This document shows, one piece after another, positions 7,494 to 20,416 of a DNA stretch of 20,416 nucleotides. Where the stretch lies: IMG/VR virus record IMGVR_UViG_3300005782_000035, positions 1 to 20,416 of that record; one strand, given 5' to 3'. Made by a program: the position numbers and the translations under genes. How positions within the stretch are numbered: position 1 is the stretch's first letter; every line of letters begins with the position of its first letter. The notes beneath the pieces were generated by a model. It was not told the origin of the DNA, did not search any database, and saw only the letters and a program-made list of their open reading frames with translations. This DNA is from a virus.

Positions 7494-7598
7494 CTCCTAT
7501 GGTACTTTAATTTAAGGGTAGTAAAGGTATTCATGTCAAATTATCCTTTGATACAGAGCTTTAAACAGAACCGTAGGCTGCTTAGAGTATATCAGCGC
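7494..7598 (+). repeat. 105-bp inverted repeat, left copy
   Basis: These 105 bases are an exact reverse complement of 20312-20416. The inner limit is sharp: the bases after 7598 do not match those before 20312. The outer limit is set by the window's right edge, so the repeat may be longer. The left end falls in the three-base loop of a seven-pair hairpin (CATAGGA/TCCTATG). The right end is the first arm of a GCGC/GCGC hairpin. Confidence 0.97.
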
Positions 7599-7655
7599 AA
7601 TGTGCGCTTTCGTTTATAAACCGAGATTGATAAAGAGAAAGGAGGTGATTAATGG

Positions 7656-7931
7656 ATGAGAAAAGAGTATACAGAACTAAAACCTGGTGAGTCTCGACTA
7701 TTAAAACTTTTAACAAAGGAGGATAAGATGTTTAGAAAATTTCTAAAAAGGATGCTAAAAAAAATTGTCAAGAAACGGCTTGCGGATAATGATTTACAAA
7801 AAGTAATTGTCCGGAAGATCAATAAAAAAGTTGATCTTCCGGCTCTTGACGAAAAAGCAGAAGCGGAGCTTTTTAATCAACTTTATGATGCTTTACAAGA
7901 GGCGTTACTGGAAGTTGTCGATTTGATATGA
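7656..7931 (+). CDS. Small basic/helical protein of unknown function
   Basis: This protein of 91 residues from the ATG at 7656 is not one I recognise. Its centre is very basic (FRKFLKRMLKKIVKKRLAD) and its C-terminus acidic and helical (EAELFNQLYDALQEALLEVV). The start is uncertain. A near-perfect site AAAGGAGGTGATT precedes an ATG at 7652 (which would encode only 12 residues, a possible leader peptide) and the ATG at 7656. A second strong site, AAAGGAGG with five-base spacing, precedes an in-frame ATG at 7728 that would give 67 residues. The gene contains a perfect 12-bp inverted repeat at 7811-7842. It is the first gene of the accessory region. Confidence 0.65.
   Translation: MRKEYTELKPGESRLLKLLTKEDKMFRKFLKRMLKKIVKKRLADNDLQKVIVRKINKKVDLPALDEKAEAELFNQLYDALQEALLEVVDLI
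7811..7842 (+). repeat. Perfect 12-bp hairpin inside a coding region
   Basis: CCGGAAGATCAA (7811-7822) and TTGATCTTCCGG (7831-7842) are exact reverse complements around an eight-base A-rich loop. No T-run follows, so it is not an ordinary terminator. It encodes part of the RKINKKVDLP region of the small gene, and may act as an mRNA structure or a protein-binding dyad. Confidence 0.8.
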
Positions 7932-8011
7932 AAGTACATAATTGGGGTAGTTGTGTTCAATTTTTCGCGCCAAGAAATTAAATATTATAGCCTGGCGCAA
8001 GAGAGGAAATT

Positions 8012-8182
8012 ATGAAAAAATTTACAATACATACCCCAAACTGTCCAGACGATTGTACCTATGGTTGGACTGTTGATAGTTTAATGTCTGAGTTTGAGAT
8101 TGATAAAAAAGATATAGACAAACTTAATATTGATGATAGTTTTGAAATTAATTGTGATCTTACTTTGTGTAGAGATGAATAA
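8012..8182 (+). CDS. Small hypothetical acidic protein
   Basis: This 56-residue frame starts at an ATG with GAGAGG five bases upstream. I recognise no family. The protein is acidic, with many Asp residues (FEIDKKDIDKLNIDDSFEIN) and four cysteines (an NCPDDC pair near the N-terminus, and single cysteines near residues 48 and 53). Its leader holds GCGCCA (7968-7973) and TGGCGC (7993-7998), which could pair. The segment TATAGCCTGGCGCAAGAGAGG closely resembles the leader of the gene at 8845, hinting at shared control. Support is the good ribosome site and coding-like composition. Confidence 0.55.
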   Translation: MKKFTIHTPNCPDDCTYGWTVDSLMSEFEIDKKDIDKLNIDDSFEINCDLTLCRDE

Positions 8183-18015: not shown

Positions 18016-19500
18016 ATGCCTTTACCAAATGAACATTCTGCACGTATCAAAAGCCCGAAAGGATATATTCGTATTCGTCGGCAGAATAATAAATTCGGTG
18101 CTGGTATTGATGTTATATTTGGAGTGAAGCCGGACGGAAAAACAGAAGTTCAGTCTATTCGTTTTGACAAAAAGAAATTTACATCAGAGAGTGCGAGAAA
18201 ATGGCTCAAAGATCATGACTATTCACCAATAGAATTTGAAGCCGCTAAAAAAGATTCCGCAGATACCATGACTGTTTTCCGTGTTGACAAAGCGCAATAT
18301 CGCGTCGGTAAAGTAAAGAAAACTGATGAAGGGTATATCACCGGAATAGCACCAATCGCAAAAGTCGGTATTCTATCTTATTTGTTAAGCGACGGGACAA
18401 TACGACGTGAGCTTGTCAATGAACACGTACTATTTAATAATGATAGTATGTCCTCTTTAAAAATGAAACCGATTACCGACTCTCATCCTCCAGAGCGTCA
18501 CGTCAATTCCAGAAATGCCCGCATTCGTAAAGTTGGGTTTACGGGAGAGACAGTCGAACGCCGTGATGATTTTCTTACAACTTCCTTGACGGTTACAGAT
18601 GACGAAGCAATCCAGAATATTGATGAAGGAAAACAGGAACTTTCTCCGGGGTATCAATGTGAACTTGAATTGACTTCCGGTACATACAACGGTGAGCACT
18701 ACGACGCTATACAAATGAAGCGTACGTACAATCATCTTGCTATATGTGACTCCGCCCGTGCCGGTCATGCAATCGGCTTGAATCTTGATAGTGAACTTCT
18801 CGACAAGGTTGACGGAATCGAAATTGACGAATTCGACTTTGACGACGAATTAATTTTAGATACAGAGGAAAATAATAACAGTAACAGAAACAATTCACAT
18901 TTACAAAGGAGTAGATTTATGTCTCATATCAGACTTGACAATATCGACTACGAAGCCGATCAGCAGGTTATAAATCATATTGGCAAAGTCGAGACCGAAC
19001 TTGCGTCCAAAACCGATACGCTTGACAAACTGCAATCCGATTTTGACAAGATGAAGGCCGACCATGATACGGCAAAGGCAAAGGTTGACGAGTTAGAGAA
19101 GGTTGACACTGCCGCGGAAGTCAAGAAAGCCGTTACCGACCGCCTTGCCCTTGAACGTCAAGTAACTCCGCATCTTGACAAAGAAGATGCGGAAAAAATT
19201 GATACGCTGGAGGACATTGACCTAAAGAAAAAGGTCATCCTGAAAGCATTTCCGAAAGCTGATGAACAGTTGAAGGATGCAAGCGAAGATTATATCACCG
19301 CTCGTTTCGATTCCGCGCTTGAGATTCTCGCAAGTAAAGAGGACGGTGATACTTCAGCGATTCATTCCCAGCGTCAACAGGCAAACTCGCAGAAAAAGAC
19401 CGATGATAAAGACTTGCCGGATCAAGAGAAATCCAGAAACGATATGGTCGGGAGAGAAAGGAACGCGTGGAAAGAGGAGAAAGAAAAGAAAGCCGCGTAA
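18016..19500 (+). CDS. Prohead protease with C-terminal scaffold (DUF2213-like)
   Basis: This 494-residue protein joins three parts. Residues 1-80 form a small basic domain (RIRRQNNKFGAGIDVIFGV, then KKFTSESARKWLKDHDY) seen before some phage proteases. Residues 85-260 are the DUF2213 protease, with the DSHPPE box (His157) and ELSPGY (Ser210) as probable catalytic residues. Residues 302-494 are a charged coiled-coil-rich scaffold (TDTLDKLQSDFDKMKADHD). An Asn/Ser-rich linker (EENNNSNRNNSHLQ) joins the last two. An internal ribosome site lies exactly in that linker. The start follows AAAGGGAA. The protease would mature capsid and scaffold after shell assembly. Confidence 0.85.
   Translation: MPLPNEHSARIKSPKGYIRIRRQNNKFGAGIDVIFGVKPDGKTEVQSIRFDKKKFTSESARKWLKDHDYSPIEFEAAKKDSADTMTVFRVDKAQYRVGKVKKTDEGYITGIAPIAKVGILSYLLSDGTIRRELVNEHVLFNNDSMSSLKMKPITDSHPPERHVNSRNARIRKVGFTGETVERRDDFLTTSLTVTDDEAIQNIDEGKQELSPGYQCELELTSGTYNGEHYDAIQMKRTYNHLAICDSARAGHAIGLNLDSELLDKVDGIEIDEFDFDDELILDTEENNNSNRNNSHLQRSRFMSHIRLDNIDYEADQQVINHIGKVETELASKTDTLDKLQSDFDKMKADHDTAKAKVDELEKVDTAAEVKKAVTDRLALERQVTPHLDKEDAEKIDTLEDIDLKKKVILKAFPKADEQLKDASEDYITARFDSALEILASKEDGDTSAIHSQRQQANSQKKTDDKDLPDQEKSRNDMVGRERNAWKEEKEKKAA
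18919..19500 (+). CDS. Scaffold protein from an internal in-frame start
   Basis: Within the protease gene, AAAGGAG (18905-18911) stands seven bases before an in-frame ATG at 18919, which is Met302 of the long product. The resulting 193-residue protein would be just the coiled-coil scaffold. This matches the well-known lambda C/Nu3 arrangement, in which a protease gene also yields a separate scaffold. The site is as strong as those of the main genes and its spacing is ideal. Production is inferred, not shown. Confidence 0.6.
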   Translation: MSHIRLDNIDYEADQQVINHIGKVETELASKTDTLDKLQSDFDKMKADHDTAKAKVDELEKVDTAAEVKKAVTDRLALERQVTPHLDKEDAEKIDTLEDIDLKKKVILKAFPKADEQLKDASEDYITARFDSALEILASKEDGDTSAIHSQRQQANSQKKTDDKDLPDQEKSRNDMVGRERNAWKEEKEKKAA

Positions 19501-19568
19501 ATCCGTTTTTGTAGATTTAACAAACGAAAATTGACAAATAAATAACACACTTAACAAAGGAGAGTTGA

Positions 19569-20312
19569 ATGTCTCAAACTTCATATAATCTCAAATCGGC
19601 GGAATCCTTTGCCGGTATGAAGGTGGATTCCCGTTTTGACCATGTTGAAAGTTTTATCGCACAACTTGCAATTCCTTTCGGTCGCGCTTGCGGTGCGGAA
19701 GCCGTAGATGTAAACGAGGTTCATCTTCCGGTAAAAGATGTTTGTGCTTTGCTTTTCGATGCTGATTTTGTTACCGCTAATGTAGTTACCATTACCGTTA
19801 ATGGTAACGCAACGGCTGGTATACCTTTTGATACCGACCACGACACAACGGTTGATGCTGTGAAAGCTGCTATTGAAGCACTTACCGGTGTTTCTTCCGT
19901 GACGTTGACGGATGTGACAAACAATCGCGAGTTTACAATTGAGACAAAGGGACTTGTCATTACCGTCTCCGAGACAGTGACAGGTGGTGCTTCACAAGCT
20001 ACCGGCACTCCGACGTATTCGAGTGACGATATATTCCGCGGTATTGCTTTACATTCGCATCAGATGGGGGCAGGCAATAAATTCGGAACCGCTGAATATA
20101 AAGCAACTGCCGCAGTCAATGTTCTTCGTCAAGGTACGGCATGGGTTGAAACAGGTCTTGCAGTCAACGCCGACGAAGCCGCTTATGTTGACATTGCAGG
20201 AGCAGTCGGTAAGTTTACCAATGTATCAGGCGGTAATCTCGCAACCGGCGGATTCTTTCGTTCAACTGTGGGAGCGGCAGGGCTTGCGAAACTCGAAATC
20301 AATATTCCGTAG
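19569..20312 (+). CDS. Putative capsid decoration/structural protein
   Basis: This 247-residue protein follows the protease/scaffold gene where a decoration or minor capsid protein is expected. The outer parts (FAGMKVDSRFDHVESFIAQL near the start, KFTNVSGGNLATGGFF near the end) resemble small cement proteins that pack on the shell. The middle, about residues 67-150, is a separate Thr/Val-rich insert (VVTITVNGNATAGIPFDTDH and following) related to an insert in the sheath protein. AAAGGAG precedes the ATG. The TAG stop shares its last base with the right-hand 105-bp repeat. No capsid gene follows inside the window. Confidence 0.72.
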   Translation: MSQTSYNLKSAESFAGMKVDSRFDHVESFIAQLAIPFGRACGAEAVDVNEVHLPVKDVCALLFDADFVTANVVTITVNGNATAGIPFDTDHDTTVDAVKAAIEALTGVSSVTLTDVTNNREFTIETKGLVITVSETVTGGASQATGTPTYSSDDIFRGIALHSHQMGAGNKFGTAEYKATAAVNVLRQGTAWVETGLAVNADEAAYVDIAGAVGKFTNVSGGNLATGGFFRSTVGAAGLAKLEINIP

Positions 20313-20416
20313 CGCTGATATACTCTAAGCAGCCTACGGTTCTGTTTAAAGCTCTGTATCAAAGGATAATTTGACATGAATACCTTTACTACCCTTAAAT
20401 TAAAGTACCATAGGAG
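20312..20416 (-). repeat. 105-bp inverted repeat, right copy
   Basis: This is identical to the reverse complement of 7494-7598 with no mismatch. It begins on the final base of the decoration-like gene's stop codon and runs to the last base of the window. By comparison with the left copy, the window ends one base into the loop of a CATAGGA/TCCTATG hairpin. The opposite strand of this repeat reads directly into the capsid gene leader at the left copy. Confidence 0.97.

Follow-up and report, generated by a model that had tools for sequence, protein, structure and literature searches.

Two divergent gene blocks and a 105-bp inverted repeat

The window, by which we mean the whole 20,416-nt stretch that was analysed, is a complete IMG/VR record and carries its phage genes in two blocks of opposite polarity. 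The minus-strand arm (2–7309) encodes the capsid, connectors, tail terminator, sheath (DUF3383), tube, chaperone and tape measure. Within it, the connector and contractile-tail operon, from g5881 to the tape measure (2–6252), is cut by the left end of the contig, and the major capsid protein, of the DUF2184 type (6359–7309; PF09950, E = 9.8e-53; phrog_264), has its ATG at 7309 with AAAGGAG upstream and an in-frame TTG further upstream at 7369. On the plus strand, an accessory operon (7656–12431) holds small ORFs, a ParB N-terminal domain fused to an N6/N4 DNA methylase (9213–10490) and, by a weak match, a sliding-clamp-like protein (11622–12431). Next come the packaging and head operon (12660–19500; TerS, TerL, portal, MuF and DUF2213 protease) and a complete structural cement, or decoration, protein (19569–20312; PF22758, E = 4.3e-18), whose C-terminus, LEINIP followed by the stop, is similar to the terminal residues in relatives. 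The PF09950 capsid, Phage_cement, DUF2213 protease, Phage_portal_3 and MuF together represent the head module of a myophage of the DUF2184/cement type.

Two sequence similarities run across these genes. A leader of the ACAAAGGAG type is repeated at 2109–2144, 2601–2636 and 6251–6286, before several of the minus-strand structural genes, and a similar motif also stands before the capsid and the cement genes. Residues 64–139 of the cement protein (19758–19985) resemble residues 97–170 of the sheath (about 3533–3754), with 39% identity over 76 aa (E = 2e-5); the shared inserted domain is of a surface type and occurs on both capsid and sheath. The cement query also matches inside or near the sheath gene in the relatives L012, L015 and L019.

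Capsid gene and accessory operon are separated by 346 nt, and it is in this spacer, flanked by the capsid leader on one side and the accessory operon on the other, that we find the left copy of the repeat, X (7494–7598, plus strand). All 105 of its 105 bases are the exact reverse complement of the right copy, X′ (20312–20416, minus strand), which begins at the third base of the cement stop codon. The original prediction had described just such an exact 105-bp inverted repeat, with a decoration-like gene ending the plus-strand head operon at the right copy and a minus-strand capsid gene beside the left one. All three statements hold, the first gene being the PF22758 cement and the second the PF09950 capsid, which is the nearest to X. 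The copies are 12,713 nt apart, and their identity extends by 0 bases past the inner edge, while the outer side of X′ is the contig end. Since the window is the whole record and X′ is its terminal 105 bases, the outer flank of X′ is absent from the record itself and not only from the window. The genes at both junctions (capsid–X–accessory and cement–X′) are all intact.

After this pair, the longest inverted repeats of the window measure 26–34 nt and all are imperfect, which rules out a chance origin for an exact pair of 105 bp. X found no match among phages and plasmids, and an Rfam search returned no RNA match within it, so that X was rejected both as a known mobile element and as a known RNA. 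A coding role was likewise rejected: a 56-codon ORF that runs from the spacer M (see below) through X into the accessory side found no relatives.

A short perfect hairpin stands at each edge of X. One, CATAGGA-CGC-TCCTATG (7485–7501), is centred on the outer edge, and the centre of the other, AGCGCA-ATG-TGCGCT (7594–7608), is close to the inner edge; by a post hoc count, only 0.8% of all positions in the window fall within 4 bp of the centre of a hairpin of this kind. The 184 nt between the capsid ATG and X (spacer M, 7310–7493, minus strand) contain a promoter-like TTGATA-16-TAATAT before the capsid at 7457–7430, a kind of match that is no more frequent in the window than in shuffled sequence, and a perfect 32-bp AT palindrome at 7402–7433. 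The same spacer holds a piece (7448–7478) that resembles 19178–19208 of the protease gene over 31 nt (87%, core 21/22), in the same sense as the capsid, and this is possibly a remnant of an old duplication. On the accessory side, a tRNA-like sequence at 8271–8341 scores 27 bits, slightly below the Rfam cut-off of 29, and ARAGORN reports no tRNA there; it is possibly a degenerate tRNA.

Gene order in related phages

We compared the window with loci that carry related capsids, 14 from IMG/VR besides the near-identical contig L001 described below and three from GTDB. The cement gene lies directly before the capsid gene on the same strand in every distinct relative where the two were found adjacent (11/11), with a gap of 13–103 nt. 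In L016, L019, L022 and L025 the cement gene was not detected beside the capsid, and protease and capsid are still co-oriented. The longer records are almost wholly on one strand through the head region; in two of them, TerL is preceded by TerS and by methylase- or accessory-like ORFs. The same order of protease, structural or hypothetical protein and capsid is seen in the cultured phages Brigit, Spp001 and S-CBS4. The window differs: its cement and capsid genes are on opposite strands, 12.2 kb apart, and would be adjacent if the segment were flipped. The proposal that a flip restores the normal order of decoration, repeat, capsid and tail thus agrees with the relatives, cement and capsid being adjacent and co-oriented in all 11, and with the three cultured phages. 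The joined cement–X–capsid spacer would be 288 nt, longer than in any relative. The divergent capsid–accessory layout of the window occurs in no relative examined (IMG/VR loci and the three cultured phages).

The gene set of the window is that of myophages with a DUF2184 capsid and a cement protein of the E217 gp24/Pam3 gp6 type (Faecalibacterium phage Brigit, Shewanella phage Spp001 and the IMG/VR loci L009, L010 and L024), and within each arm the order is also shared: TerS–TerL–portal–MuF–protease–cement on one side, and capsid–adaptor–neck–tail terminator–sheath–tube–chaperone–tape measure on the other. In those myophages, both arms form one co-oriented operon with 13–103 nt between cement and capsid (IMG/VR loci), whereas the arms of the window are divergent and X touches both. 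One of these loci, L024, is a MAG contig labelled Nanoarchaeota, yet it carries a bacterial-type tailed-phage head module, and the label is probably a binning error.

L009 is the closest relative of either arm of the window (61% for TerL, 64% for the capsid), so the window is one phage. A join of two different phages is ruled out, since the arms share their closest relatives and the ACAAAGGAG leader motif. Scans for closer relatives with the cement, capsid, TerL, MTase and TMP sequences found only L001 as a near-identical contig, and a scan of genome contigs returned distant relatives only.

The capsid–X–accessory junction and its assembly

A 40-bp pattern from X matches one other contig, L001 (dataset 3300008516, 8,400 bp), which is identical to positions 2446–10845 of the window (100% identity). 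It holds a single internal X, at 5049–5153, and carries the capsid–X–accessory junction with flanks of 5.0 kb and 3.2 kb. The join is repeated at 100% identity, which suggests that the junction is not a one-off peculiar to the assembly of the window, although L001 may share its sample or assembler. Contig scans with three exact patterns, the 40-bp one and both ends of X, match only L001 among the contigs covered, from which other near-identical records may have been left out, and in no contig found by these patterns do we see a cement–X–capsid junction or the fourth flank of the repeat. The contigs therefore show only one orientation of the segment.

Four readings of these data were weighed, and the probabilities that we attach to them are our own estimates rather than computed values. 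We favour an ambiguous assembly of a colinear genome, a reading to which we give about an even chance; adding the possibility of a library chimera brings the two together to slightly better than even. A limit of the short-read assembly is about as likely as a true flip of the genome. We infer that the capsid–X–accessory join is wrong or represents a minor form.

In the favoured reading, X would be a branch point of the assembly graph and the window one path through it, which stops at its second visit to X. The genome would most likely be colinear as in the relatives, running from accessory genes through terminase, portal, protease and cement to X, and on to capsid and tail. That X touches the cement gene, the accessory DNA and the capsid leader would be explained most simply if it is present twice, in inverted orientation, in the genome. 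Short reads would leave the order unsettled, so that a contig could have joined capsid, X and accessory DNA and ended on the last base of X′, and an overlap merger could attach the capsid arm to either end of the 12.7-kb unitig. This reading is favoured by the coincidence of X′ with the contig end, by the adjacent and co-oriented cement and capsid genes of the relatives, by the shared closest relative of the two arms and by the fact that no recombinase was recognised in the window.

We modelled k-mer graphs for four cases. With k = 105 and X shared by two neighbours, the unitig on the cement side extends exactly 105 bases beyond the cement gene, and symmetry places X at both ends of the 12.7-kb unitig. 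In the model, a contig that ends in such a terminal copy is expected from assembly alone, and would neither show nor exclude a true repeat. For a time, JGI pipelines used SOAPdenovo with k up to 105, followed by merging of contigs with minimus2 (PMC5086546, PMC5436645), for which an overlap setting of 80 is given (PMC5369317). The repeat length of 105 equals the top k of an early JGI pipeline, so far only a numerical coincidence. Data from the human gut, reassembled with metaSPAdes, and from Singapore water, assembled with CLC, fall in the ID block of 3300008516. The records of relatives have just two terminal repeats, both direct (123 and 118 bp) and both in other datasets, and these are uninformative on k.

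The contig ends exactly at the repeat edge, as repeat-terminated assembly artefacts do. As in repeat-terminated contigs from short-read metagenomes, the final base of the window is also that of a sequence with another copy further inside; unlike in typical ones, this internal copy is traversed, and the same is true of L001. Several observations speak against an assembly origin. The dataset that yielded L001 makes the same join; the 346-nt spacer, with hairpins at the edges of X and its promoter-like site, would suit a native divergent promoter region; and the 288 nt of the joined cement–capsid spacer exceed the gap in all relatives. If the junction is an artefact, it would serve as a warning that normal phages may appear rearranged when a contig finishes in a repeat copy, and that the same join can come up in a second assembly.

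A related explanation places the error in the library: amplification or ligation would have joined an inverted strand, and one of the two junctions would be its artificial product. The chimeras that phi29 polymerase makes are mostly inverted joins: these account for more than 85% of MDA chimeras, and most show short complementarity where the strands meet (PMC1855051). The edges of X do lie at short hairpins. We consider this very unlikely nonetheless, as the two sequences that come before the shared bases have no microhomology with each other, and the same junction in another dataset would require a shared library or a shared source.

A possible inversion of the 12.7-kb segment

Alternatively, the 12.7-kb segment with the accessory, packaging and head genes could be truly inverted relative to the capsid–tail arm, in a fixed or long-lived form. 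Transcription of the two blocks would then diverge from the 346-nt spacer containing X, and the X′ after the cement gene would be the other breakpoint copy, arising from homologous recombination between inverted copies or from a staggered-break inversion; the repeat nature of X would be the sole reason why the contig stops at X′. We regard this as a serious possibility, if one with a less than even chance. It is supported by the same junction in L001, identical over 8,400 bp, and by the intact genes at both junctions. The hairpins that straddle both edges of X, where only 0.8% of positions would qualify, suggest that M, X and accessory DNA are natively contiguous, though this statistic is post hoc. 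The TTGATA-16-TAATAT before the capsid points the same way, though shuffled sequence yields matches of this kind at least as often, and a divergent spacer of 346 nt with a promoter-like site is ordinary for divergent operons. Against a fixed inversion, the layout is seen in no relative, and the fourth flank of the repeat is never met, the three exact X patterns matching only L001.

The original prediction had offered a choice between a flipped segment and a wrong join. The observation behind it is correct, and a flip of any molecule is not established, X′ lying at the contig's last base. To our knowledge, there is no phage in which an inverted repeat separates the capsid–tail operon from the packaging operon, and a true inversion would be the first known case. 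It would mean that the strongly conserved linkage of cement and capsid can be broken.

An active switch, which the original prediction had also raised, goes a step further: both orientations would coexist and interconvert by recombination between the 105-bp repeats. The capsid–tail operon would lie downstream of the packaging–head operon in one orientation and diverge from it in the other, so that the phage would have a state that forms virions and one that does not, or states with different timing. Identical inverted copies of 105 bp are a plausible substrate for homologous recombination, and both the capsid–X and the cement–X′ adjacencies are present in the data. A modelled mixture of the two forms with k = 127 also gives a unitig that stops at the far edge of X′. 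The same mixture breaks the capsid arm at X, yet both contigs run through X, and no contig explicitly shows the second orientation. X is unlike a short recombinase site with a central core, and no recombinase, integrase or invertase was recognised among the proteins of the 20.4-kb window. With a single orientation in the contigs and no recognised recombinase, the data do not bear out the switch, and we consider it improbable.

Known phage switches provide a useful comparison. In the G segment of Mu (Gin) and the C segment of P1 (Cin), tail-fibre genes are flipped by a serine invertase. Like the segment described here, these are phage segments bounded by inverted repeats; they differ in that the invertase is encoded beside the segment and acts on short sites, whereas the window has a 105-bp repeat and, within its length, no recognised serine invertase gene such as Gin/Cin-type inversion requires beside the segment. 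They also differ in what is flipped, tail-fibre genes in Mu and P1 and the packaging–head operon in the window. TerS gives a weak match to a DNA-invertase profile, which covers only its helix-turn-helix region.
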